A DNA stretch of 64,000 bases from the NCBI GenBank assembly GCA_014055465.1, contig WIAF01000008.1:124001-188000 (forward strand), given 5' to 3'. Positions 12,287-63,571 of this stretch are shown here, one piece after another (the first letter of the stretch is position 1; each line of letters starts with the position of its first letter). This DNA is from Nitrospira sp. CR1.1 (lineage in GTDB: Bacteria > Nitrospirota > Nitrospiria > Nitrospirales > Nitrospiraceae). The translations under genes and the position numbers were made by a program. Below the pieces are notes generated by a model that saw only the letters and a list, made by a program, of their open reading frames with translations, did no database searches and had not been told where the DNA came from.

Positions 12287-13093
12287 TCAAGCCGATTCGC
12301 CATCGCCGACCGCAGAGGCGAGGGCGCGATAGTCATCGAGGGTCAGCGTCTCTGCCCGAGACTGCACCGGAACACCGATAGCCTGCATCGCGCGGGAAAT
12401 CCGCCCGGACGGATATCCCTCATCACGCAACGAATTCACCAACGTCTTCCGCCGATGGGCAAAGGCCGCCCGCACCAGACGCCGGAACCGCTCATAATGA
12501 ACCGGATCGATGCCATCCCGGGGCTTGAGTTTAAGATGCACGACCGCCGACCCGACGGTCGGACGAGGGCGGAAACAATTGGCAGAAACACGAAAAGCGA
12601 CCTCCACCTCTGCCGCTTCCTGCGTCAAAACCGACAGCACTCCATAGTCCTCGCTGTTCGGTTTGGCGGCCAATCTGAGGGCCACCTCGGTTTGCAGCAT
12701 CAGCACTAGACGGTCGAAGTGGGCACGGGCATCCAGTAATGCGAACAGAATCGGCGTGGAGACGTAATACGGCAGGTTCGACACCACCACCGTCCGCGGC
12801 GGCAGGCTGTCGAAGGGGAACTCCAAGGCATCCCCGATTCGAAGGTCGAGGTTGCGGCAATGACCGAGCGTCTCCTGAAGTTGAGGCCGCAGCTGCGGAT
12901 CGATCTCGACCGCAATGACACGCCCGGCCTCAGCACACAACCCGGCCGTCAACGCGCCCCGGCCCGGCCCGATTTCCAAGACCGTGTCATCCGGACGAAG
13001 CGCCGCCAGGGACACGATTTTGCGGATAATGTTCGGGTCGATGAGAAAATTCTGACCAAGCCGTTTCAGGGCTGGGGGAAAGGGCGCAGCCAT
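12287..13093 (-). CDS. rsmA: 16S rRNA (A1518/A1519) dimethyltransferase RsmA (KsgA)
   Basis: A 268-residue SAM-dependent methyltransferase of the KsgA/Dim1 family, which dimethylates two adjacent adenines in the last helix of 16S rRNA during late 30S assembly. Visible motifs are LGQNFL at the N-terminus, the SAM-binding motif I LEIGPGRGALT (about 40-50), the acidic VEID that binds the ribose, and the catalytic NLPYYVSTP (NLPY, about 106-109). The C-terminal helical domain has the usual AFAHRRKTL. The length is typical. It lies 15 bases downstream of a small unknown gene and close to pdxA, the neighbourhood seen in many Gram-negative bacteria. Confidence 0.97.
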   Translation of the reverse strand: MAAPFPPALKRLGQNFLIDPNIIRKIVSLAALRPDDTVLEIGPGRGALTAGLCAEAGRVIAVEIDPQLRPQLQETLGHCRNLDLRIGDALEFPFDSLPPRTVVVSNLPYYVSTPILFALLDARAHFDRLVLMLQTEVALRLAAKPNSEDYGVLSVLTQEAAEVEVAFRVSANCFRPRPTVGSAVVHLKLKPRDGIDPVHYERFRRLVRAAFAHRRKTLVNSLRDEGYPSGRISRAMQAIGVPVQSRAETLTLDDYRALASAVGDGESA

Positions 13094-13108
13094 GGTTCAC
13101 GCGGCTTT

Positions 13109-13435
13109 CTATCCGGCGGTGCGAGGAGCCGTCGTCCGCAGGCGTTTCGCGAGCGTGACAAGATACGACCGATAACATTCCACTTCGTCGCTGAACTCCT
13201 CGATCAAATCGTTGGTGAACGCCATGCCCGGAGTTGTTCGCGTCAGGCCGTCCGCCTCGGCCGGCCCGGCATGTTGCTGCAGCAGGGCCACCGTACGAAT
13301 TTTCCATTGTCCCACACGTTCCGTGCCCAGGGTGGTGTTAAAGTCCTGAATGGTCCTGGTCGCGATCGCGTCCAACTCCTTCACCTGTTGATCGATGATG
13401 GCTGCCGCGGAAGATCCTGCATTTGATATGGACAT
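13109..13435 (-). CDS. Small hypothetical protein between pdxA and rsmA
   Basis: A 108-residue, mostly helical, soluble protein that I do not recognise. It has no signal peptide, membrane segment or cysteine pair, and is rich in Thr, Ala and Glu. It lies 12 bases from pdxA and 15 bases from rsmA on the same strand, so it is almost certainly transcribed with them. The tight spacing and the lack of another plausible frame support a real gene. No function can be proposed beyond a possible link with its operon partners. Confidence 0.7.
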   Translation of the reverse strand: MSISNAGSSAAAIIDQQVKELDAIATRTIQDFNTTLGTERVGQWKIRTVALLQQHAGPAEADGLTRTTPGMAFTNDLIEEFSDEVECYRSYLVTLAKRLRTTAPRTAG

Positions 13436-13447
13436 GTCTCCTCTTTC

Positions 13448-14491
13448 CTATCGGGACGGTTGGTGAACGGGAGACCAGGATTGTGCCAGACGGGCCGCGA
13501 CCTTCACCGCCTCCAACAAACTCCCGTGCTCAGCGACCCCTTTGCCGGCAATATCGTAGGCGGTTCCATGATCGACCGAGGTTCGAATGATCGGCAACCC
13601 TACCGTCAGATTCACGCAGGCGCCGAACGCGACGAGCTTGAGGGGAATCAATCCTTGATCATGATACATCGCCACCACCCCATCGTAGTCGCCGCGCGCG
13701 GCCTTTCCAAACAGGGTATCGGCAGGCAACGGATCGCTCGCCTTGATGCCGGCAGCCCTGGCTAACTTGACGGCCGGAGCGATGCTGGTCGTCTCTTCGT
13801 TCCCGAACAGACCATGCTCCCCGGCATGAGGATTCAACGCCGCCACGCCGATCCTCGGGCGCGCAATGCCAAAATACTTCGTCAACCCGAGATGCGCCAA
13901 ACGAATGGCCTTGCTGATCCGCTCCTTGGTCAGCAGTGGAGACAAGGCGTTGATCGCGACATGAGTGGTGGTAAACATAATTTTCAGCGGCCCGCCGACA
14001 ATCATCATACCGAACTCTTTGGTCCCGGTGAGATCCGCCAACAGTTCGGTGTGCCCCGGGTAGTGAAACCCGGCCATATTCATCGCTTCTTTATTGATGG
14101 GAGCCGTGACGATTCCGCCTACGCTCCCCGCCTGCGCCAACTCGACCGCTTCTTTGATGAATGCGATGGAAGCCGCACCGGTCACTTCCGACGCCACGCC
14201 CATGCGAAATTTCGGCAGCGGACGTTCCAACGGATCAGCCACAGCGACCTGTCCGGACTTCAATCGCGAGCCGCCGCCCGGATCAAACGCCACTACGTCC
14301 AAGGGCAAATCCAGCCACTTGACCGTTCGTTCCATGACCGGACGGGAGCCGATGACCACCGGCCGACAAAGCCGCGTCAGCGCCTTGTCGGCCAGCGCCT
14401 TGGCAATGACCTCAGGCCCGATCCCGGCCGGATCTCCCATGGTGAGACCCAAGAGAGGACGGACCGACCGTTGTGAGAGCTTACGAGCCAT
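13448..14491 (-). CDS. pdxA: 4-hydroxythreonine-4-phosphate dehydrogenase PdxA
   Basis: A 347-residue enzyme that oxidises 4-phosphohydroxy-L-threonine with NAD(P)+ in the DXP-dependent route to pyridoxal phosphate. Family motifs are GLTMGDPAGIGPEV near residue 20, the metal-ligand histidines in YPGHTEL, TTTHVAI and MYHDQGLIPLK, and the C-terminal TSVDHGTAYDIAGKG. The ATG at 14491 is used; ATG 14497 and TTG 14518 are in frame. The gene overlaps the end of the antiporter gene by about 10 bases, which suggests coupled translation. PLP made by this pathway is the cofactor of DapL, LysA and ArgD encoded elsewhere in the window. Confidence 0.95.
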   Translation of the reverse strand: MARKLSQRSVRPLLGLTMGDPAGIGPEVIAKALADKALTRLCRPVVIGSRPVMERTVKWLDLPLDVVAFDPGGGSRLKSGQVAVADPLERPLPKFRMGVASEVTGAASIAFIKEAVELAQAGSVGGIVTAPINKEAMNMAGFHYPGHTELLADLTGTKEFGMMIVGGPLKIMFTTTHVAINALSPLLTKERISKAIRLAHLGLTKYFGIARPRIGVAALNPHAGEHGLFGNEETTSIAPAVKLARAAGIKASDPLPADTLFGKAARGDYDGVVAMYHDQGLIPLKLVAFGACVNLTVGLPIIRTSVDHGTAYDIAGKGVAEHGSLLEAVKVAARLAQSWSPVHQPSR

Positions 14492-15494
14492 GGGCATACA
14501 AGAATAATGTGTAGCCAAGGTACAGGAGCGCGCTGCCGCTGAGCAACCAGGGGCGCCAATGCCCGGACCAGACTGCCTGCAACAGGCTCAGACCCATGGC
14601 AATGACGGCGAGGACCATCGTCGCCAGCGCCGTGGTCCCCAGGGTCCATTCGGTTCCGAGCAATCCGACAGAGACGGGGATTGAACCCTGGAACACCATC
14701 GCACCGGTCACATTTCCGACCGCCAGCCGATCCTTTTTCCGGTACAACCACAAAAAACTATTAGACATCTCGGGTAACTCCGTGGCCAGCGGGGCGATCA
14801 ACAACGCAAGGATAAGCGGCGAGACCTGCAGTTCGGCGGAAATGGAATTTGCCGCCGTGACAAACAGGTGGGCTCCGCCGACCAACCCCAGCAACCCGAC
14901 GATCCCTTGCGCTCCAATGACCAGATATGAGGGTTTGGCGGAGCGGCGGGAGAAAAGCAGCGGTTCCAGGTCACCACCCTCCTCGCCTTCTTCGTCTTCC
15001 GCCGAAAACTTGAGTTTCATGTAATACACGTACATGGCCAGTAGCACAACCGCCACAGCGACATGGAAGACCTTCGAAGGGATCATGGCGCAGGTGAGCG
15101 CCAGCACATAACTGACGAGAAAAAAGCTGATATCGACCCGGACCTCGCCATAATTGAGCTTGAAGGTCGCCGTCCGCTTCCCCAGCTTTGCGTAGAGCAC
15201 CAGCAGCAGCGCCAGGATCGGCAGCACCAACGTGCTGAGCATAAACGGCGCCCCGAGAATGGCCCCCAGACCGACTTCCATCTGCTCGCGCCCCGCCCCG
15301 AAAAAGATGGCGATGATCGGAATCGAGGTTTCAGGGAGCGTCGTCCCGACGGCAGCGAACACACTCCCGACCGCGCCTTCCGAAATATTCAGGCGTTTTC
15401 CGAGCCACTCAATGCCGTTCGTAAAGAGATGGCACCCGGCGAGGGTGATGACGACGGAGGCGACAAACAGTCCCACGTAGAGCAGAACTGTCAC
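14481..15494 (-). CDS. CaCA-superfamily sodium/calcium (cation/H+) antiporter
   Basis: A 337-residue polytopic membrane protein with about ten membrane segments in two inverted halves. Each half carries an alpha-repeat ion-binding motif: GTTLPETSIP in the first (about residue 50) and APLATELPEMSNS in the second (about 240). The acidic residue in each (Glu in LPE) is the expected cation ligand. An acidic cytoplasmic loop (EDEEGEEGGD, about 165) separates the halves, as in NCX/YrbG proteins. It should exchange Ca2+ or a related cation for Na+ or H+ at the inner membrane. It lies between larC and pdxA, co-directional, and overlaps the start of pdxA. The family is secure, the ion is not. Confidence 0.85.
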   Translation of the reverse strand: MTVLLYVGLFVASVVITLAGCHLFTNGIEWLGKRLNISEGAVGSVFAAVGTTLPETSIPIIAIFFGAGREQMEVGLGAILGAPFMLSTLVLPILALLLVLYAKLGKRTATFKLNYGEVRVDISFFLVSYVLALTCAMIPSKVFHVAVAVVLLAMYVYYMKLKFSAEDEEGEEGGDLEPLLFSRRSAKPSYLVIGAQGIVGLLGLVGGAHLFVTAANSISAELQVSPLILALLIAPLATELPEMSNSFLWLYRKKDRLAVGNVTGAMVFQGSIPVSVGLLGTEWTLGTTALATMVLAVIAMGLSLLQAVWSGHWRPWLLSGSALLYLGYTLFLYAHGS

Positions 15495-15552
15495 CGGCGG
15501 CCCCGCAGGTCAATGGGAGAGGGGGAGAAGGGAACAGACACGATCTCGTCAA

Positions 15553-16779
15553 TCACGTGCGCCCCTTTCTTGTGTGGCTTGCGCCGCGGGTCTGCCGATA
15601 CACCAGCATGGCCTCGTCTAGCACGTCCTTGACAGGACGACCACTCTGTTCGGCCACGCGTTTACAATCTTCATATTCCGGAGCGGCTTTGCTCTGCCCC
15701 GGCCGCGTCTCTGCGAGTTTGATGCGCACATCAGTCCCGTTGACCCGCACGGAAGCAAACCGGCGCGGCAACACACGCCGCTGCACCTCGCGAGTCCGGA
15801 CGCCGAGCGCCGTCGTTTCGGCAAAAAGCACCGCCAGGACCGCCTCTGCCTGTTCCCGAGGCACGAGGACGGACAGGACATTTCCCGGCCGGCCCTTCTT
15901 CATGATGACCGGCGCCAGCGTCGCGTCGAGAGCCCCGGCGGCAAACACCCGGTCGAACACCGTGTCGTACACTTGCGGATTCACATCGTCGAGATTCGTT
16001 TCCAGCTCAACGATCGTGTCCACCGCCCCGCTCAGAGCCGGCTCTTCGCCGATGAACACGCGCAACACATTCGCCCACTGCGCCGGATCGGCAGTCCCCG
16101 CGCCATATCCCACTTGACGCACCTGCATGGAGGGCAGGCCGCCGAATGCTGTCGTCACGGTTCTGAGCAGGGCCATCCCGGTCGGCGTCGTCAGCTCCCG
16201 CTCAGGACCTTTGGCGTAAATCGGCACTCCGACCGCTAACGCGGCTACGGCAGGTCCCGGCACAGGCAACGCGCCGTGAGCCGACTGAAGCATGCCGGAC
16301 CCGACATTGACGGCGGAGGCCGTCACACGCTGAATGTCGAGCAGGTGCAGGCCGAGGATCCCGCCGACCACATCCACAAACGAATCGATCACGCCCACTT
16401 CATGGAAATGCACATGCGCCGGCTCGACTCCGTGGGCCTTTCCCTCAGCGTCTGCCAGGACGTCGAATACGGCCTGACTCCGTTCTTTCACCACTGGCGG
16501 CAGGCCGCTTTTCCGGAGAATGCTGGCGATTTTCGCCAGGGTCAACGGGGCGCGAAAACCTTTATCAATCAGCACATCGACCTTGGTCGCCGTGAGGGCT
16601 CCGCGCTCGACCCGCTTGCGCGCGAGCCGATACCCCTCGATCTTCAGCGAAGCCAGTCCGCGCACGAGATCCTTGAACGGCAACCCCGCATCGACCAACG
16701 CGCCCAATGTCATGTCGCCGCTGATGCCGGAGAAACAATCGAAATGCAGGTGCCTCGCCACGCCACTCCTACGGTTCAT
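15553..16779 (-). CDS. larC: Nickel-pincer cofactor biosynthesis protein LarC
   Basis: A 408-residue LarC (TIGR00299/DUF111), the CTP-dependent nickel insertase that completes the pyridinium nickel-pincer nucleotide (NPN) cofactor first found in lactate racemase LarA. Visible hallmarks are HLHFDCFSGISGDM at the N-terminus, HFHEVGVIDSFVD in the middle, LTTPTGMALL, and the C-terminal LETNLDDVNP and KKGRPGN. The gene is a single intact frame, unlike Lactobacillus plantarum where larC1 and larC2 are read through a programmed frameshift. The ATG at 16779 is preferred over a TTG at 16791. larB lies about 760 bases upstream on the same strand, with one oppositely oriented gene between. larA and larE are not in the window. 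Confidence 0.93.
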   Translation of the reverse strand: MNRRSGVARHLHFDCFSGISGDMTLGALVDAGLPFKDLVRGLASLKIEGYRLARKRVERGALTATKVDVLIDKGFRAPLTLAKIASILRKSGLPPVVKERSQAVFDVLADAEGKAHGVEPAHVHFHEVGVIDSFVDVVGGILGLHLLDIQRVTASAVNVGSGMLQSAHGALPVPGPAVAALAVGVPIYAKGPERELTTPTGMALLRTVTTAFGGLPSMQVRQVGYGAGTADPAQWANVLRVFIGEEPALSGAVDTIVELETNLDDVNPQVYDTVFDRVFAAGALDATLAPVIMKKGRPGNVLSVLVPREQAEAVLAVLFAETTALGVRTREVQRRVLPRRFASVRVNGTDVRIKLAETRPGQSKAAPEYEDCKRVAEQSGRPVKDVLDEAMLVYRQTRGASHTRKGRT

Positions 16780-16930
16780 GATTCCACGCAAACGAGCGGC
16801 ATCTTACCGGAGCCGCACCCAGACAGCAATCATTCCGCTCGTTCATTGACAGCCCTGCCATGCTGTGTTATCCCCAATCAAGAAACGCATGCCATCGGAC
16901 CACCAGCCACCACCTGCGACACCGACACCC

Positions 16931-17500
16931 ATGATCAATTCAACACCAGCTCCCCGGAACACCGGCAGGCGTGTATCGGCGGGAATGAGATTCGGCCTGC
17001 TGCTCCTGCTCAGCGGCATTTGCCTGCTTGGGGAGCAGAGCGTGATTCTCGCCAAAACCAAAGGGAAGAGCAGCGTCCCGCGCCCTGAGCCGGACTTGAA
17101 AATCCTCTCGCTGCAGGCTGCGCCGATGCCCTATCGGCCGCAGGATGGCCCGTTTCATTTCGTCGCCACCGTGCAATTGCCGAAGGAAGTCGACGAACAC
17201 CTCATGCTGGAAGTGTCCGCACTCGTCACGTCCGCCTCCATGACCTCGCTACGCTTCCTCTCGATTCGACAGCCGGTGAATCAACATGTGCAAACGACTC
17301 CAAGCGCGAATGGAGATACCCCGCAACGGCATGTGCACGTCGACCTGGAGTGGGACGGACTGGATCACAACAAACAGCAGATTCCGGTCGGATCGTATGG
17401 GTATGAAGTTCGAGTCAAGCTGTTGAGTAACGGAGAGAAAGGTCAGCGCACCCAAATGCTCTCATGGCCAAAACGCGGCAAGATTGTGGTGAAGGACTAG
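16931..17500 (+). CDS. Hypothetical secreted/anchored protein between larC and larB
   Basis: A protein of about 189 residues with one hydrophobic stretch (about residues 20-40, LLLLLSGICLLGEQS) that reads as a signal peptide or membrane anchor after a basic, proline-rich start. The mature part is a beta-rich domain of about 140 residues with no motif I recognise; it ends in KRGKIVVKD. It is encoded opposite to the flanking lar genes. The start is uncertain: ATG 16931 is used, while GTG 16865, ATG 16889 and ATG 16985 are in frame. The orientation makes a role in NPN synthesis unlikely. Confidence 0.65.
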   Translation: MINSTPAPRNTGRRVSAGMRFGLLLLLSGICLLGEQSVILAKTKGKSSVPRPEPDLKILSLQAAPMPYRPQDGPFHFVATVQLPKEVDEHLMLEVSALVTSASMTSLRFLSIRQPVNQHVQTTPSANGDTPQRHVHVDLEWDGLDHNKQQIPVGSYGYEVRVKLLSNGEKGQRTQMLSWPKRGKIVVKD

Positions 17501-17537
17501 CCGAGTGCCTTTCCTGCGATACGAGCGCATTTCGTGA

Positions 17538-18320
17538 TTAGCGCCTCGCCCCTGTCGGCCGATCCCCATCCATCTCGCCCACCATATTGATGCGGTGAGC
17601 CAGGCAGCCGGCGCCGAACCCGTTATCGATATTCATCACGCCGACACCGGCCGCGCAGGAATTCAGCATCGTCAACAAGGCGGCCAACCCGCCGAAATGC
17701 GCGCCATACCCACGGCTGGTCGGCACCGCGATGACCGGTTGCCGCACCAATCCGCCGACCACGCTTGGAAGCACACCATCCATCCCGGCCGCAACAATGA
17801 TGGCCCGCGCGTCATGTAACCGCTCTTGTTGGCCAAGCAACCGATGCAACCCGGCCACTCCCACGTCATACAAGGTGTCGGTCTTGCTGCCCATGATATC
17901 GGCCGTCACGCGCGCCTCTTCGGCGACGGGAATATCGGCGGTTCCGGCGGTGACAATGAGGACAGACCCTCGACGCACCAGCTTGGGCGGCACAATCGCC
18001 ACGACCCGCGCCGCCTCGTGATAGGTCGCTCGTTTGCTGACCCGCAGCAACGCCCGAGCGGCAACAGGCTCCACCCGCGTGGCCAACAGCGCATTATTCT
18101 TCCGCAACAAAGTCCTGGCGATGGCCACCACCTGCGACACGGTTTTTCCTTCGCAAAAAATGACTTCCGGGAAACCCTGTCGAATGGCGCGGTGGTGATC
18201 GAGCGAGGCAAATCCTAAATTTTCATACGGGAGTGTGCGCAACCGGTGCAGTGCATCCGGCACCGCTGTGGCGCCCTGCTGAACGTCTGTCAGTAACGCC
18301 CGCAACTGGTCTTGATTCAT
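17538..18320 (-). CDS. larB: Nickel-pincer cofactor biosynthesis protein LarB
   Basis: A 260-residue LarB, the carboxylase/hydrolase that adds CO2 to C5 of nicotinic acid adenine dinucleotide and releases AMP, the first step of NPN synthesis. The C-terminal half (about 115-250) is the PurE-like fold, with VLIVTAGTADIPVAEEA, YDVGVAGLHRLL, AAGMDGVLPSVVGGL, VPTSRGYG and NIDNGFGAG. The N-terminal segment (ENLGFASLDHHRAIRQGFPEVIFCEGK) is the conserved LarB lead, with a Cys in FCEGK. Its ATG overlaps the gpsA stop as ATGA. With larC nearby this gives two of three NPN biosynthetic proteins. Confidence 0.93.
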   Translation of the reverse strand: MNQDQLRALLTDVQQGATAVPDALHRLRTLPYENLGFASLDHHRAIRQGFPEVIFCEGKTVSQVVAIARTLLRKNNALLATRVEPVAARALLRVSKRATYHEAARVVAIVPPKLVRRGSVLIVTAGTADIPVAEEARVTADIMGSKTDTLYDVGVAGLHRLLGQQERLHDARAIIVAAGMDGVLPSVVGGLVRQPVIAVPTSRGYGAHFGGLAALLTMLNSCAAGVGVMNIDNGFGAGCLAHRINMVGEMDGDRPTGARR

Positions 18321-19342
18321 GACAGGGCCTTTTCTTCCTTGGCTTCGCGTTCCATCAGGTCACCGACTGCCTGACGGCAAGGTTTGTCGGCAAAGAGTAC
18401 GGCGTTGACCTCCTGTACAATCGGCATGTCTACACCACACTGCTGGGCCAGACCCAACGCGGCTTTGGCGGTACGCACGCCTTCCGCCACGGCCTGCATA
18501 CTGGCCAGAATGCCGTCCAACCGCTCGCCTCTTCCTAACCGCACCCCGACCGAATGGTTGCGACTCAAGGGCCCGGTGCAGGTCAGGATGAGATCTCCAA
18601 CTCCGGACAATCCGTAAAACGTTCGTGGATCCGCACCCATCGCCATTCCAAGCCGGATCATTTCAGCCAGGCCACGGGTGATCAGCGCCGCGCGAGCGTT
18701 ATGGCCGAGTTCAAGCCCATCCACCACGCCGGCCGCAAGGGCCATGACATTTTTCAACGACCCGCCGAGCTGGACCCCAATCAGGTCGTCATCCGCATAG
18801 ACCCGAAACGTCGGCGTCATGAACAGGCTCTGAATGGCCTTGACGGCTCCGGCATCCTGGCCGGCGAGGCACAGCGCCGTCGGTTTTCCCTGGCTCACCT
18901 CGCTGGCGAAACTGGGACCGGACAGGACCATCAATGAATTCCTCATATGTGCAGGCAGAACATCCTGCATCACCTGCGTCATTAGTTCGAGCGTGGTTTC
19001 CTCGATGCCCTTGGTGGCGCTGACGAAGGGAACCGATTGCGATAGGAGGGGGCCGATCCGGCTCAGGACCAATCGTGCCACATGCGAGGGCACGGCGAAA
19101 ATGACACAATCAGCCCCCGCCAGGGCGTCAGCCAACTGGTTCGTGGCGGTTAAGGTGGACGGCAGCCGCACCCCCGGCAAGAAGACGACATTTTCACGCT
19201 GCCGTTCGACGGCCTGCACGACCTCCGGTTCATGCGCCCACAAACACACGGAGATCTGTTTCTCAGCCAGATGACGGGCCAACGCCGTTCCCCAGGCGCC
19301 GGCGCCGATGACCGCTACGCGTTGACTTGATGATCGCGTCAT
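18317..19342 (-). CDS. gpsA: NAD(P)H-dependent glycerol-3-phosphate dehydrogenase GpsA
   Basis: A 341-residue cytoplasmic enzyme that reduces dihydroxyacetone phosphate to sn-glycerol 3-phosphate for phospholipid synthesis. The N-terminal Rossmann motif VIGAGAWGTALA (residues 10-21) binds NAD(P)H. VFAVPSH, VSATKGIE, LSGPSFASEV and GGSLKNVMALAAG (catalytic Lys) follow, with a C-terminal helical domain (ALITRGLAEM, LSGVGDLILTCTG). Length and motifs match the family throughout. It is the first gene of the minus-strand run and is translationally coupled to larB by an ATGA overlap. Confidence 0.97.
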   Translation of the reverse strand: MTRSSSQRVAVIGAGAWGTALARHLAEKQISVCLWAHEPEVVQAVERQRENVVFLPGVRLPSTLTATNQLADALAGADCVIFAVPSHVARLVLSRIGPLLSQSVPFVSATKGIEETTLELMTQVMQDVLPAHMRNSLMVLSGPSFASEVSQGKPTALCLAGQDAGAVKAIQSLFMTPTFRVYADDDLIGVQLGGSLKNVMALAAGVVDGLELGHNARAALITRGLAEMIRLGMAMGADPRTFYGLSGVGDLILTCTGPLSRNHSVGVRLGRGERLDGILASMQAVAEGVRTAKAALGLAQQCGVDMPIVQEVNAVLFADKPCRQAVGDLMEREAKEEKALS

Positions 19343-19463
19343 GGACGCGGATTATAGGAAGGGGTCTGGAAGGGTGTCAACGAAGCCATCCGGCACATTC
19401 GCCTGATCACTGGAATTTCGTTTGCGCAGACGGTAGGCTGCAGGTCCACGAGGAGCCGCGATC

Positions 19464-19829
19464 ATGAAGCCCTGTCCAGCCTGCGGACGCGCCCTGCCCG
19501 AAATCAATCGTTACTGCACCTACTGCGGAGCCGGCGTGGCCCGCGACACGGAGGGAGCAGCGACGACGCGCGCGTCCGGCTCCGGCTCAGCGAGAGAACA
19601 GCTGAATCTGAACATCTTATATGGCATGATCACCGTCCTGATCGTGTCTCTCATCATGCCGCCCTGGGAAACGCCGCCCTCACAACCGGCAGCCTTTCTC
19701 GGCTTTCATTTCATTCTTTCACCGCCGCAACCAGGGGCCATTGTCAGCCGTTTGTTGCTCACGATCGAACTCACCACGACGGCCATTGCAGGTCTGTACT
19801 TATCGTTTTTCTTCCGGTCAAAGCGGTAA
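19464..19829 (+). CDS. Small zinc-ribbon membrane protein
   Basis: A 121-residue protein. The N-terminus is a zinc ribbon of two CxxC knuckles (CPAC at 4-7, CTYC at 18-21). A polar linker and two hydrophobic segments follow (about 50-70, ILYGMITVLIVSLIM, and about 95-115), ending in a basic tail FFFRSKR. It probably sits in the inner membrane with the ribbon in the cytoplasm. No family function is known to me. A second protein of the same design (ribbon plus membrane segments) is at 62930-63571. It stands alone between divergent gpsA and convergent arginine-degradation genes. Confidence 0.75.
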   Translation: MKPCPACGRALPEINRYCTYCGAGVARDTEGAATTRASGSGSAREQLNLNILYGMITVLIVSLIMPPWETPPSQPAAFLGFHFILSPPQPGAIVSRLLLTIELTTTAIAGLYLSFFFRSKR

Positions 19830-19861
19830 GCGAAGGGCGCTCAGGCTGGTCACCTACGCTG

Positions 19862-20662
19862 TTAATCCAGAGCCAGGGTCAGGCATTTGGCGGCGCCGCC
19901 TGACTTCATGAACTCACCCAACTCCACGTCATGCGTGTAATACCCGCGGGATTCCAGAAGCCCTGTGGTGCTGGGACAACCGGCCGGAATGACGATGTGC
20001 TTGCCGATGCAGACAGCATTGCAGGCGAATCGAATCGCTTCCGCCTCCGGCACCACAAGCCGCTGTTCCTCAGGTATCCGTTGCGCGATGGCGGCCAGGC
20101 CATAGGCATCGAATGCGGGAGGAAAGTACAACAACTCGCCGCCGCTGAGGGGACAAAAACACGTATCGAGATGATAGAACCGGCCATCGATGAGTTCGAG
20201 CGGAATGATTTCGCGCTGGAAGATCTCGCTCAGCTTCGGAAACGACCGGATATCCGATCGCTGGCGATATCCGCCGAACCAGGTGTCTGGAAATCCCAGG
20301 AGGTCGCCGGCTCCTTCAAAATAGAGCGACTCCTCGAGCGTCACTACATCATACCCATGCTCGTGAAACCATTGCGTGAAATACACTTCCTCGCGCCGGC
20401 GCTCGGGATAACGAAACCGGCTGATCACGGCGCGGCGACCGTCAACCACCCCGGCATTGGCCGTAAAGACCAGATCCGGCAATCCGGGAACAGGCTGCAT
20501 CAGCTCGATTCCTGCTCCGACGTCCTGCTCCAACACGTTCACCAGCCTCTGCCATTGGCTCGCCGCGCGCGACGGAGCCACGGCATTCTCACGACGCATC
20601 CAGGGATTGATTTCGTAATCGATCTGAAAATATTCGGGAGGACAGACCAACAACCGGCTCAT
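19862..20662 (-). CDS. Arginine dihydrolase-like protein (AgrE/ArgZ N-terminal type)
   Basis: A 266-residue enzyme of the guanidino-group-modifying (amidinotransferase/DDAH) fold. It has the TANAG motif (VFTANAGVV, about residues 67-75), an acidic motif FEGAGDLL, the catalytic His region FYHLDTCFCPL, and the nucleophilic Cys260 in the C-terminal GGAAKCLTL. Known relatives include dimethylarginine dimethylaminohydrolase and the N-terminal arginine dihydrolase domain of cyanobacterial AgrE/ArgZ, which splits arginine into ornithine, CO2 and two NH3. The Asn in TANAG is the position linked with dihydrolase activity in ArgZ. Its ATG overlaps as ATGA the stop of a TIGR00300 gene, the partner domain fused in AgrE. 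That context favours arginine dihydrolase over DDAH, but this is inferred. Confidence 0.8.
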   Translation of the reverse strand: MSRLLVCPPEYFQIDYEINPWMRRENAVAPSRAASQWQRLVNVLEQDVGAGIELMQPVPGLPDLVFTANAGVVDGRRAVISRFRYPERRREEVYFTQWFHEHGYDVVTLEESLYFEGAGDLLGFPDTWFGGYRQRSDIRSFPKLSEIFQREIIPLELIDGRFYHLDTCFCPLSGGELLYFPPAFDAYGLAAIAQRIPEEQRLVVPEAEAIRFACNAVCIGKHIVIPAGCPSTTGLLESRGYYTHDVELGEFMKSGGAAKCLTLALD

Positions 20663-21903
20663 AGACGCCACCCGAGTTCACGCGCCAGTTCTTTGAGAAA
20701 GGATGCGGCGTCCATCACAATGCCGACCGCTTGAAAACTGCCCCGGTCCGCCAGTTTTGTCGGCACGGAAGGATTCACATCGACGCAGACGGTGGGCACG
20801 GTGGCCGGCAACAAATTGCCGGTGGCGATGGCGTGCAGCGTGGACGCCACCAACAGAGCCAGGCCGACGCCCTGCACTTCGGCGCGCATCGCCTGCTGCG
20901 CCTGCATGGAGTCCGTCACCACGCCGGGCAGGGGGCCATCATCCCGGATGGTGCCGGCCATCACCATTCTCACGTCGTGCCGTACGCAGGCTGCCATGAT
21001 GCCCTCGGTGATCATACCGGAGCGCACCGCCTCATGAATGCTGCCGATCGCGCGAATCCGGTTGATCGTCCGCAAATGATGCTCATGTCCATGCGGAACG
21101 GACCGACCGGCGGTCAAGCCATACCCGAGAGACGTGCCGTACAAACTAGCTTCCATATCGTGCGCGGCCAGCGCATTGCCGCAGAACAGAGCTTGAATAA
21201 AGCCGGCTTCGATCAGCCAGGTCAGCGCCTCCCGCCCGCCGGCATGCACGATCGCCGGCCCGCCCGCCAGGAGCACCTTCGTGCCCGGATGCCCCTGCCG
21301 AAAGCCGGCCCGCAATTTCAGCATCCGTTGCGCGATATCGGCGATGACCGGCTGATGCGGTCGTTCTGAAGACACCACCGATTCCATGAAACCGAACACA
21401 TCGCGCTCGGCAGGGCGGGTCAAGGGCAGAACCCTAATGCCTTCTCTCCCCGTCACGATCAAGTCGCCGGCCTGTACCGCGCCCATTGGCAGCGTTCTGG
21501 CGCGAGCCTTCGCCGGATCGACACAAATGCCGAGGTCCATCTCCATACCCTCGACCTCCACCCAATCGCCATCGAGCCGGATCTGAGTCGGCAAATGCGT
21601 CGTGGCATAGAACTGATCGGGGAATATCCCTGCCGCCGGGGCCGGCTCGAACCGGCAATCGGTGTCCCGCTCGACGGCGGCGCCATGGGGTTGAATGGCC
21701 TGGAGAATCTCGGCCAACTGCCGGCTGGACCGGGCACGCACGACAATTCGCGCTTGCGAAGGCGCCTCTCTCGTCGTCCCTATGTTCACATCCTGCAGAT
21801 CGAAGGCGCCGCCCATCATCAGAATCGTGTCCAGCACTTTGGCCAGGATCAACGAATCGATGATGTGGCCTTGGAGAAATACCGTTTCCTGCGATGCTGA
21901 CAT
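20659..21903 (-). CDS. TIGR00300/LOR-SDH family protein, probable ornithine cyclodeaminase (AgrE C-terminal type)
   Basis: A 414-residue protein matching the TIGR00300 (LOR/SDH bifunctional) family along its length. It has an N-terminal small-molecule-binding region (HIIDSLILAKVLD, IFPDQFYATTHLPTQIRL, WVEVEGMEMDLGICVD) and a Rossmann-like NAD domain (ALFCGNALAAHDMEASLYGTSLG, GHEHHLRTINRI, DDGPLPGVVTDSMQAQ). Characterised relatives are the archaeal ornithine cyclodeaminase and the C-terminal domain of cyanobacterial AgrE, which turn ornithine into proline and NH3. It is directly upstream of, and overlaps, the arginine dihydrolase-like gene, so the two halves of AgrE are encoded here as separate coupled proteins. 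The reaction is inferred from family and context. Confidence 0.85.
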   Translation of the reverse strand: MSASQETVFLQGHIIDSLILAKVLDTILMMGGAFDLQDVNIGTTREAPSQARIVVRARSSRQLAEILQAIQPHGAAVERDTDCRFEPAPAAGIFPDQFYATTHLPTQIRLDGDWVEVEGMEMDLGICVDPAKARARTLPMGAVQAGDLIVTGREGIRVLPLTRPAERDVFGFMESVVSSERPHQPVIADIAQRMLKLRAGFRQGHPGTKVLLAGGPAIVHAGGREALTWLIEAGFIQALFCGNALAAHDMEASLYGTSLGYGLTAGRSVPHGHEHHLRTINRIRAIGSIHEAVRSGMITEGIMAACVRHDVRMVMAGTIRDDGPLPGVVTDSMQAQQAMRAEVQGVGLALLVASTLHAIATGNLLPATVPTVCVDVNPSVPTKLADRGSFQAVGIVMDAASFLKELARELGWRL

Positions 21904-22005
21904 GACCGGGTCCTCTGAACTCGAATCGGCAATCTAGAGGGACGCAGCGTGAGTCACACGTGCGTATCCTGATTCTACCATTAGTCCGAATGGATGACCC
22001 GTTCG

Positions 22006-23055
22006 CTAGGAATTCTTCACAACCTCTCGCAGCACACTGGTGGCATAGGATCCCGGCGGGAGCCAGAACGAGAGCGTCAACACCGAACCGTCCAGCGACC
22101 AGGCCAGGTCATTGAGGCGAACACGCAGCGCGCGCCGCTCACCGCGGAATCCGCATTCCGCACCGGCTTTCGACAAGAGATCCGGCGTGCTGCCCAATTC
22201 GGCAATGACGGCCCGTTCAATGTCTCCCGGCACACCTGTCGCCCATGGCGCCCGCGACCCGAAGAGTGGTCCCGTCGGGCTGATTTCGAATCGATCCGCC
22301 CGCAGCTGCTCCACATCCGGCTGTTCCACCGGGAAACAGGCGCCGTTTTCAGACTTCATGGCCCAATCACCGAGCAACACCCGGTCAATAGTCTCGATCC
22401 GCCTGGCAACGATCTGGTTGAACACATACGACTGATAGGCATTCATGAACCAGATGCGTTTGGAGCGAGGCATCTTGTTGCGGCGCGCCGCATCCTGCAG
22501 TAACTCGGCGCCCAGCTGAAAATTTGTCCCCGAGCGTCCTTGTCGTTGCGGACCGAAATAATTGGGCACCCCGCGCCGCACCAGCTCATCAAACAGCCGG
22601 CTCAGCAAGTCCTCGCTCCCCTCGCGAACATCGCGTACGACCAAACGAAAGTGATTGCCGGCATGGTGCCCCTTGCGCAGTCGATTGCGATGGCGCCCCA
22701 ATACCTCTACGCTAAGCAATCGCTCGTCTGTCGCTAAGGCCGCGACCGCGTCGGCCTTCACGCCCTGCAACGACACCATCTGCGTGGTGACCGCTTGTGC
22801 ATCCTTGAGGCCGGCCACGCCGATCGTCTGCGCCTTCACATGGAGTTGGGACGAGAGTCGCAACACCAGATCAGGGGTAGACAGACCCCGCTTGGTGATT
22901 TTGATATACAAGTGTTCCCCCTCGCCGCAGGGCAAATACAGAGGGCGCTCGTCCACGCAAAAATCTTCCGGCGTGCTGCGGATGCGGCCGCCGAGAGCCG
23001 GAATGGAAGCGGTCACGTAGGGCACCGTATCATCGAGCCAAGAGGGAGTCGGCAT
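22006..23055 (-). CDS. truD: tRNA pseudouridine(13) synthase TruD
   Basis: A 349-residue TruD, which makes pseudouridine at position 13 of tRNAs. The catalytic Asp85 is in AGLKDAQAVTTQ. Further family motifs are FCVDERPLY, the GHHAGNHFRLVVR segment, VPNYFGPQRQGRSG and AYQSYVFNQIVARR. The insertion (TRUD) domain lies at about 155-300, of normal size. It is a single gene on the minus strand, not obviously in an operon, with about 120 bases to the divergent gene on its left flank in coordinates above 23055. Confidence 0.95.
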   Translation of the reverse strand: MPTPSWLDDTVPYVTASIPALGGRIRSTPEDFCVDERPLYLPCGEGEHLYIKITKRGLSTPDLVLRLSSQLHVKAQTIGVAGLKDAQAVTTQMVSLQGVKADAVAALATDERLLSVEVLGRHRNRLRKGHHAGNHFRLVVRDVREGSEDLLSRLFDELVRRGVPNYFGPQRQGRSGTNFQLGAELLQDAARRNKMPRSKRIWFMNAYQSYVFNQIVARRIETIDRVLLGDWAMKSENGACFPVEQPDVEQLRADRFEISPTGPLFGSRAPWATGVPGDIERAVIAELGSTPDLLSKAGAECGFRGERRALRVRLNDLAWSLDGSVLTLSFWLPPGSYATSVLREVVKNS

Positions 23056-23178
23056 GAATGTCCTTCATCGTTTCAGAGCGATTACACTTCACGTCATTTG
23101 GATAGTCACGGGAGCCACCCGTGTTATACTCATCTCAGGCGAGCTCCGACGCCCACTATCCCACTGGACGTGATCCTC

Positions 23179-23835
23179 ATGCGAACCGGCCTTGCCAAAA
23201 CGAGCTGTGCGATCTTGTTTCTGTTGTGCGCGATCGCACCCGCCTCGTCAGCGACGGCGGGCTCCCGGGCAATCGGGATCGATGTCTTTGCGCAGCTCAC
23301 CCAACACATCAAACGCCAGGCAGACACCGACAAGCAGGCCTTTGCGATTGCCAGTCAATGCATGACGTTGTTTTACAAGCAACAGCGGCACAAGCCTGCC
23401 CCGCCCGCCGTGCAACAGATTGCCTGGATTCCCGCGGAGTCCTCTGCATTCGCCGCCGCCGACTCAGACGCGCAGGAGGCGGATTGCCGCAAGCGGTATC
23501 CCGACGGACTCGATGCGGTACGCACCGACTTTCAGCGCACCCAGGCACTGCTTTCCCTCAGTCTGACCTTTTACGAATTCGCTCTCGTCGGTGACGGCGA
23601 CGACAATTCCCTGTACAGCGCGCGTGAACTGCACGACATTCTCGTAGCGTTGAACCTGGCCGCCGAACCTTCTCTGGGAGCTGCTGCCCATCTGCGTTCG
23701 CTCACCGCCCAATTTGATTCCCTGCACGACGCCCGTGGCATGGAAGCGCTCATGACAGGGATGGGCAAACTCTATGATCAGGGCTATCGTGTCACCACCG
23801 CGGACAAAGCGCATCTGAATCGAGTGATGGAATGA
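23179..23835 (+). CDS. Hypothetical secreted protein
   Basis: A 218-residue protein with a standard signal peptide (MRTGLAKTSCAILFLL, cleaved near ASSATAG). The mature part is mainly helical, with one short Cys-containing stretch (ASQCMTLFY) and a second Cys at EADCRKRYPDG; these could form a disulfide in the periplasm. I do not recognise the family. The ATG at 23179 is used; GTG 23170 is in frame, and the frame stays open far upstream. Its stop overlaps the metallophosphoesterase start as ATGA, so the two proteins are made together. Confidence 0.7.
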   Translation: MRTGLAKTSCAILFLLCAIAPASSATAGSRAIGIDVFAQLTQHIKRQADTDKQAFAIASQCMTLFYKQQRHKPAPPAVQQIAWIPAESSAFAAADSDAQEADCRKRYPDGLDAVRTDFQRTQALLSLSLTFYEFALVGDGDDNSLYSARELHDILVALNLAAEPSLGAAAHLRSLTAQFDSLHDARGMEALMTGMGKLYDQGYRVTTADKAHLNRVME

Positions 23836-24665
23836 TCTCCGCGGTGATGCGATGGCAGGAGCTGGTGCGCGTCTGGATCGGTCACTGGCTCAGCCGCCCC
23901 TTTCACCATTTCTTCAATCTGATACCGGGAGTGGAAATCGGTCTGTCCACGGCGACCGTGACCAGGCTTCCGCTCACCCATGCTCCCCTGGCCGGACGAC
24001 GGGCCGTACACTTGAGCGATCTGCATCTGGACCGCTACCGTCCACGGCATCGCGCCCTGGTGCGCGCCGTGGCGGACCTGAAGCCGGATTGGATCTTCAT
24101 CACCGGCGATCTGGTCAATGTCCGGGACGGACTCCCGCATGTGCTGCGCTTCCTCACGGAACTGCGACGGCTGGCCCCCGTCTTCGTGACCCTCGGAAAC
24201 CACGATCACTACAGCGGTATCGGTGTCGATGAGTTCGCCGAACAATTCGATCGCCGCAAGGTCACACTGCTGCTCAATCAGGTCACGTTCATTCGAGTGG
24301 CAACCGGCGAACTGGCCATCGCCGGGCTGGATGATCCGTCACTCCATCGCGCAGATCTTCGCTGCATTCCTTCGTCGCAGCCCGGTCGGTTCACGCTGGT
24401 GCTGGCGCACGCGCCGAATATTCTGGATCAACTGACGCCCAAGCAACACACCGATCTCACGCTCTGCGGCCACAGCCACGCCGGCCAATGGCGGATTCCC
24501 GGCATCCCGACATTCTGGTTGCCGCCCGGTTGTCACGGACGGACTCACGGCCTGTACGAGAAGGGCGGCCACCGTCTGTATGTCAATCGCGGCCTGGGTT
24601 GGTCGGCCCTTCCCATGCGAGTGAATTGCCCGCCCGAAATTGTGCTGCTTGAGTGGGCCGCATAA
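23832..24665 (+). CDS. Metallophosphoesterase (calcineurin-like, YaeI/YkuE type)
   Basis: A 277-residue phosphoesterase with the complete two-metal motif set: HLSDLHLDR, FITGDLVN, LGNHDHYSG, LVLAHAPN and GHSHAGQWRIP. An N-terminal amphipathic/hydrophobic stretch of about 35 residues (WIGHWLSRPFHHFF) may tether it to the membrane, as in YaeI/YkuE proteins, some of which cleave lipid-linked phosphates such as UDP-2,3-diacylglucosamine. The C-terminal motif WLPPGCHGRTHG with RGLGWSALPMRVNCPPE is typical of this branch. The substrate is not determined. It is coupled to the secreted protein gene upstream by an ATGA overlap. Confidence 0.9.
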   Translation: MISAVMRWQELVRVWIGHWLSRPFHHFFNLIPGVEIGLSTATVTRLPLTHAPLAGRRAVHLSDLHLDRYRPRHRALVRAVADLKPDWIFITGDLVNVRDGLPHVLRFLTELRRLAPVFVTLGNHDHYSGIGVDEFAEQFDRRKVTLLLNQVTFIRVATGELAIAGLDDPSLHRADLRCIPSSQPGRFTLVLAHAPNILDQLTPKQHTDLTLCGHSHAGQWRIPGIPTFWLPPGCHGRTHGLYEKGGHRLYVNRGLGWSALPMRVNCPPEIVLLEWAA

Positions 24666-62929: not shown

Positions 62930-63571
62930 ATGAAATCCTGCACGCAATGCCAGCAAGAAAACCGCGACGAGGCCCGTTTTTGTCACCAGTGCGGGGCGGC
63001 GTTTGCCCTCGAAGCCCGCGCCGCCGCTATCGAGCCGGACCAGGTCGCTCCGCAGACGGATACAGAGCTCTTGAAGGCCTTCATCGGCCCCAATGCCGAC
63101 CGATATCTGGAAACGTTCAAAAAATTTTCAGGCCCGGGCGGACCGCAATTCGCGCTGACCTGGCATTGGCCGGCCTTTGTGTTCGAGCCGTTTCTCTGGT
63201 TTCTGTATCGGAAGATGTATGTCTACGCCCTCATCTATGCCATAGGGCCCGCCATGGCATTTTATATTACCCAAGACCTGTCCGCCGACATCGTCTGGCG
63301 GGTCATTGCGGGGGGCAGCGCCAACTACATTTATTTCTGGCATGCCAAGGAACAGCTTGCCAAAATTAAAAGTGAACGGGCCACAGCCGGAGAAACTCGA
63401 GAGCAGATGTTAGGAGAACTGGGCGGGGTACAGCCCTATGTCGTGTGGGTCGGCGTCGGGCTGCTCCTGTTAAAAATCGGGCTGGTCGTGGCGATGTTCA
63501 AAGATGGCCCACCGGATGGACCCAAGGGGCCTCCCGCCAAACCGCAACCCGCCAGCCTCACGGCCGTGTAA
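62930..63571 (+). CDS. Zinc-ribbon membrane protein with DUF2628-like region
   Basis: A 213-residue protein. A zinc ribbon opens it (CTQCQQ at 4-7, CHQCGAAF at 18-21). About residues 40-135 look like DUF2628: FIGPNADRYLETFKKF, then TWHWPAFVFEPFLWFLYRKMYVYAL and membrane segments. A last membrane segment (about 170-190, VVWVGVGLLLLKIGLVVAMF) and a Pro/Gly-rich tail follow. DUF2628 proteins are inner-membrane proteins of unknown function. GGGAG lies just before the ATG at 62930. It is divergent from argD across 169 bases. Confidence 0.82.
   Translation: MKSCTQCQQENRDEARFCHQCGAAFALEARAAAIEPDQVAPQTDTELLKAFIGPNADRYLETFKKFSGPGGPQFALTWHWPAFVFEPFLWFLYRKMYVYALIYAIGPAMAFYITQDLSADIVWRVIAGGSANYIYFWHAKEQLAKIKSERATAGETREQMLGELGGVQPYVVWVGVGLLLLKIGLVVAMFKDGPPDGPKGPPAKPQPASLTAV

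Follow-up and report, generated by a model that had tools for sequence, protein, structure and literature searches.

Cyanobacteria break arginine down with a single protein, AgrE/ArgZ, in which a dihydrolase precedes an ornithine cyclodeaminase. Do the nitrite-oxidizing Nitrospira carry the same pathway as two separate genes, and which cofactor and metabolic role would such a pair have? We addressed this in a 64,000-nucleotide stretch of DNA (the window) from a 4.44-Mb Nitrospira genome. The nearest loci belong to Nitrospira metagenome-assembled genomes at 91-95% identity, followed by N. defluvii (86%) and N. moscoviensis (75%). A preliminary description of the window had recognized an ornithine cyclodeaminase-like gene (OCD) and an arginine dihydrolase-like gene (ADH), and both open reading frames, their ATGA overlap, and the TANAG motif and Cys260 of the dihydrolase are present as described (Table 1). 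It did not mention larB and larC, two genes for biosynthesis of the nickel-pincer nucleotide (NPN) that lie 1.5-5 kb downstream of the pair.

Table 1. Features of the OCD/ADH locus, in window coordinates
Feature	Coordinates	Strand	Details
truD	22006..23055	-	conserved neighbor upstream of OCD
OCD (ornithine cyclodeaminase, TIGR00300)	20659..21903	-	414 aa, ATG start; Saccharop_dh_N and ArgZ-like_C domains
ATGA stop/start overlap of OCD and ADH, 4 nt	20659..20662	-	reads ATGA at 20662-20659
ADH (putative ArgZ-type arginine dihydrolase)	19862..20662	-	266 aa from ATG; N69 = ArgZ N71, C260 = ArgZ C264
ORF for a small membrane protein with a zinc ribbon, between ADH and gpsA	19464..19829	+	weak PF13240
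gpsA, glycerol-3-phosphate dehydrogenase	18317..19342	-	conserved neighbor; overlaps larB by ATGA
larB, NPN biosynthesis (pyridinium carboxylase/hydrolase)	17538..18320	-	NF033503 283.9 bits, cut-off 175
larC, nickel-inserting cyclometallase of NPN biosynthesis	15553..16791	-	TIGR00299 190.8 bits; PF01969 439 bits

In the direction of transcription, the order is truD, OCD, ADH, a gap, gpsA, larB and then larC. The overlap between OCD and ADH probably couples their translation; an alternative GTG start at 20671 would lengthen ADH to 269 aa. The gap before gpsA holds the opposite-strand zinc-ribbon ORF, and a second opposite-strand ORF lies between larB and larC. A similar N-terminal ribbon is also found at 62930-63571. 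TruD is probably unrelated in function to OCD and ADH. An Rfam search of 13000-24000 detected no element, nickel riboswitches included. Beyond larC come a Na/Ca exchanger-family gene and then pdxA (13448-16791, larC included), and a similar block recurs in one relative (G070) and in part in another (G083).

Identity and arrangement of the gene pair

OCD scores 463.5 bits against TIGR00300 (curated cut-off 410.8) over residues 7-410 of 414 and is therefore a member of that family. Pfam assigns it both ArgZ-like_C domains in addition to Saccharop_dh_N, and its best solved relatives are AgrE, ArgZ and the Methanococcus maripaludis protein 3c2q. Alignment of the Nitrospirota proteins with AgrE and the M. 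maripaludis protein shows Lys383 and His248, His273, His276 and His357 to be invariant. A search with a second model, NF052526 (ODC_var), added nothing beyond the TIGR00300 set. Judged from its sequence, OCD very probably makes proline from ornithine. The archaeal TIGR00300 proteins (M. maripaludis 3c2q; MJ1480 domain 3mgj), which share about 44% identity with OCD in the catalytic portion, are likewise stand-alone cyclodeaminases, whereas the Nitrospira cyclodeaminase gene is linked to one for a dihydrolase; this archaeal comparison is one of proteins rather than loci.

The dihydrolase is also closest to the cyanobacterial enzymes. ADH matches ArgZ and AgrE structures at 238-262 bits (Synechocystis ArgZ 6juy, 259; Anabaena AgrE 6lrf, 242), in contrast to no more than 37 bits for solved dimethylargininases (DDAHs). 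Its N69 and C260 correspond to N71 and C264 of ArgZ in alignment numbering and are invariant in 19 aligned homologs. The depositors of the ArgZ structures changed these two residues in their variants (N71 in 6juz, C264 in 6jv1), and we take both to be catalytic on that basis and from general background. The motifs TANAG, FEGAGD, HLDTCFCPL, FACN and KCLTL are common to ADH and ArgZ/AgrE. A single-sequence fold prediction for ADH reached a pLDDT of 32 and was left out of the evidence.

We weighed the alternative that ADH is a dimethylargininase or another guanidino hydrolase, with OCD drawing ornithine from a different source. ADH scores 295.2 bits against the NCBIfam arginine dihydrolase model (NF052232, an equivalog domain), below its cut-off of 450, and is thus ArgZ-like without being filed as a member; it also reaches 230 bits on the Mycobacterium tuberculosis-type DDAH model. 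A homolog in G083 scores equally on the two models (294.8 versus 290.7 bits). In a phylogeny whose branches are long and whose support is modest, ADH falls among sequences of Nitrospirota, cyanobacteria and actinobacteria and apart from Pseudomonas aeruginosa DDAH. The preliminary description had named a position inside the dimethylargininases as grounds for rejecting its assignment. For canonical DDAH no such position is found, but actinobacterial 'DdaH' proteins, annotated as dimethylargininases, share the same broad clade and also have Asn at the position of N71. Against this alternative, ADH falls under every DDAH cut-off (NF045659, 229.9 versus 300; NF045660, 73.4 versus 340; NF045658, 36.9 versus 450) and scores higher on the arginine dihydrolase model than on the M. 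tuberculosis-type one. Moreover, the TANAG, FEGAGD, HLDTCFCPL and FACN motifs are mostly not shared by the actinobacterial group, which carries mostly FAANG and HLDTAL instead, and a fixed coupling to an ornithine-consuming enzyme favors ornithine as the product of ADH. We consider a dimethylargininase or other guanidino hydrolase improbable, and ADH is likely to act on arginine.

Adjacency of the two genes is strikingly constant. OCD is directly followed by ADH in 80/80 Nitrospirota loci fetched, with a 4-nt overlap in 71, an association that cannot be put down to chance given that all 80 related loci share it. The same order was found in every other locus tested, extending to another family in the class, where identity falls to 52%/50%, and no fused OCD-ADH form was seen among the sampled loci of the class. 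Because the order is kept in all loci, deeper families included, the split, cyclodeaminase-first arrangement must be old in the class. The NCBIfam model for bifunctional ArgZ/AgrE, NF052231, requires one chain with the dihydrolase first, whereas the Nitrospira locus has two ORFs with the cyclodeaminase first.

The proposal that these genes represent the two domains of the cyanobacterial enzyme, in reverse order and in a nitrifier, is thus borne out, with Sll1336/ArgZ of Synechocystis and Alr4995/AgrE of Anabaena as the best solved relatives. Both cyanobacterial proteins have the two domains at full length, the catalytic Asn and Cys, and the same expected reactions as the Nitrospira pair; they differ in being one protein rather than two overlapping genes. 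In all likelihood the pair corresponds to AgrE/ArgZ in split form. The enzymology itself is familiar; the novelty lies in how the genes are arranged, in their occurrence throughout Nitrospira and in the nickel-cofactor genes nearby. Nitrite oxidizers of global importance would thus join the cyanobacteria as carriers of the AgrE/ArgZ pathway, here split by nature into two halves that could each be assayed alone, so that the cofactor of the cyclodeaminase could be examined cleanly, free of an attached dihydrolase.

A probable role in arginine catabolism

From the gene identities, the fold, and the conserved catalytic residues and gene order established here, the following reactions can be proposed. 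ADH, as a Cys-His guanidino hydrolase, would convert arginine to ornithine, two NH3 and CO2. OCD would transiently oxidize ornithine at an amine, release NH3, cyclize the product and return the hydride to give proline. The next step, from proline to glutamate, would fall to PutA, whose gene lies elsewhere in the genome; an open frame of 1032 aa that contains a proline dehydrogenase domain fits this protein. The hydride carrier of OCD would be NPN, made by LarB and LarC together with LarE, which is also encoded elsewhere. Presence of PutA and of the three Lar proteins is read from the genome, while the direction of flow and the cofactor are predicted. We lean toward this reading as a whole, a coupled unit for arginine catabolism through proline to glutamate with an NPN-using cyclodeaminase. 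It suggests a possible route by which Nitrospira would release ammonium from arginine and recover glutamate. Completion of the path from arginine to glutamate by a PutA-type enzyme has been described in cyanobacteria (PMC8262935).

A different role was put forward in the preliminary description, which saw in the presence of ArgD, ArgF, ArgG and ArgH in the same window an ornithine-ammonia cycle for storing and releasing nitrogen. Those four genes are indeed encoded in the window, about 37 kb from OCD and ADH and outside the operon, and such a cycle has been described for Synechocystis ArgZ, as cited in PMC8262935. The idea of storage finds no support here. We found no cyanophycin synthetase gene (cphA) in the host genome, in line with a survey of nitrite-oxidizer genomes in which none had cphA (PMC10687191). 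ProB, ProA and two copies of ProC are encoded as well, so the supply of proline is independent of OCD, which rules out OCD as the only route to proline; a second ProA-like gamma-glutamyl phosphate reductase is encoded at G000:C6:190692-191960 of the host genome. With PutA and ProA/B/C encoded and no cyanophycin synthetase found, the simpler and likeliest role is the breakdown of arginine by way of ornithine and proline to glutamate, with ammonium released. A coupled OCD would drain ornithine from a cycle, and since the cyclodeaminase is coupled to the dihydrolase and PutA is encoded, a closed cycle is less likely than onward conversion to proline and glutamate. Flores has made a similar point about AgrE (PMC8262935). 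That the pair serves mainly to make proline, or runs a closed storage cycle, therefore seems unlikely.

The cofactor of the cyclodeaminase

As of June 2026, NCBIfam names TIGR00300 'ornithine cyclodeaminase, nickel-pincer nucleotide-dependent'. In the open-access literature, we found no published work linking ornithine cyclodeaminase to NPN. About 15% of genomes encode larBCE without larA, and cyanobacteria make NPN mostly without LarA, probably for use in a 'yet-to-be-identified protein' (PMC11796402). LarB, LarE and LarC of Synechocystis are functional (PMC11796402), and this organism also has ArgZ. The Nitrospira locus thus bears on the question, posed in 2024, of which protein uses NPN in organisms without lactate racemase, most cyanobacteria included (PMC11796402).

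We surveyed 118 Nitrospirota genomes and 14 control genomes. TIGR00300 occurs in 39/118 Nitrospirota genomes, all 39 of which encode LarB, LarC and LarE and 27 of which lack LarA; it occurs in none of the 18 genomes without the lar pathway (genome-level Fisher p = 6e-4). At the level of families, lar genes are present in 3/3 families with OCD and 19/23 others (p = 1), a test that is empty because lar genes occur almost everywhere in the phylum. With the two levels disagreeing in this way, we did not accept co-occurrence as proof of NPN use. Beyond Nitrospirota, the sample consisted of the controls and one Acetoanaerobium record. Among the controls, TIGR00300 was found only in Methanocaldococcus jannaschii and Haloferax volcanii, both with LarC and no LarA match, and the Acetoanaerobium record has a cyclodeaminase-like gene together with larC.

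Synteny was likewise set aside as proof. Although larB is present in 58/59 loci whose sequence extends at least 6.5 kb past OCD on the downstream side, this adjacency was observed in a single family. In the lineages checked outside that family (f1), the OCD/ADH pair lies apart from the block of gpsA, larB, larC and the exchanger gene, and the gpsA-larB-larC block is independent there. Within the Nitrospira family, the 2.0-Mb relative G070 keeps gpsA, larB, larC and a gene of the GSU2086 family (block G070:C2:85000-95985) and lacks OCD. Because the pair and the block are separate in other lineages and the G070 block stands without OCD, neighborhood alone is no proof of a functional link.

These arrangements, including the separate block in G083, are compatible with the same pathway run by an NAD(H)-dependent OCD, as proposed for AgrE on the basis of its crystal structure, with larB and larC serving LarA and other NPN enzymes and adjoining the pair by old gene order only. 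An AgrE structure, 6lrg, is titled as a complex with ornithine and NAD+. The predicted fold of OCD (pLDDT 77) is that of the NAD-dependent deoxyhypusine synthase (Z about 15-17). Deoxyhypusine synthase carries out a hidden hydride transfer on an amine; it shares the fold of its catalytic domain with OCD, but the two are only about 10-16% identical, and the substrates of the synthase are spermidine and eIF5A. The host also encodes a LarA, which could itself use the NPN. On the other side stand the NPN dependence stated in the NCBIfam equivalog name, the lack of any OCD-positive genome without lar genes, and the 27 OCD-positive genomes with full LarBCE and no LarA, most of which also carry GSU2086, another possible NPN user. 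Taken together, these observations tilt us toward NPN rather than NAD as the cofactor of OCD, with NAD(H) dependence the less probable reading. It is attractive to suppose that a lysine-tethered pyridinium cofactor, with the invariant Lys383 as the candidate residue, would sit in the pocket where these enzymes bind NAD.

An NPN-dependent OCD would share its predicted cofactor with LarA, and LarB and LarC are encoded in its gene neighborhood. No match between the two proteins was seen in sequence or fold: OCD has no Pfam match to LarA (PF09861), and LarA was not among the Foldseek/VIA-align matches listed, which by itself is no proof that the folds differ. The host LarA is encoded elsewhere. 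The host LarA-like protein (L125:4544-6028, G000:C2) is flanked by a glycosyltransferase gene and a flippase-like gene, which suggests a role in polysaccharide metabolism rather than with lactate.

The GSU2086 family as a candidate NPN enzyme

A weak TIGR00300 match elsewhere in the host genome proved to be a GSU2086-family protein (409 bits; G000:C1:620992-621906). Among the 118 Nitrospirota genomes, this family is present in 94/100 lar-positive and 1/18 lar-negative genomes, and by family in 22/22 lar-positive and 0/4 lar-negative (p = 7e-5). Only two lar-positive genomes lack LarA, OCD and GSU2086 alike, and both are fragmented assemblies. The pattern could also have arisen through shared ancestry combined with joint loss in a small number of lineages. 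GSU2086 and OCD have a short stretch in common, around NA and HDxE, and GSU2086 shows faint similarity to deoxyhypusine synthase. We regard GSU2086 as a candidate NPN enzyme other than LarA.

More tentatively, and doubtful on present evidence, OCD and GSU2086 may both belong to another structural class of nickel-pincer enzymes, a second one with the deoxyhypusine synthase fold, and these families would then largely explain the NPN pathway in genomes without LarA. In that case, Nitrospira would need nickel to break down arginine. In Geobacter, GSU2086 lies in a heptose operon (PMC5585712), and we can only speculate that the family catalyzes an NPN-dependent step in the synthesis of heptose or LPS sugars. 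As read from the sequence, the host GSU2086 gene adjoins a phosphoheptose isomerase-like gene.
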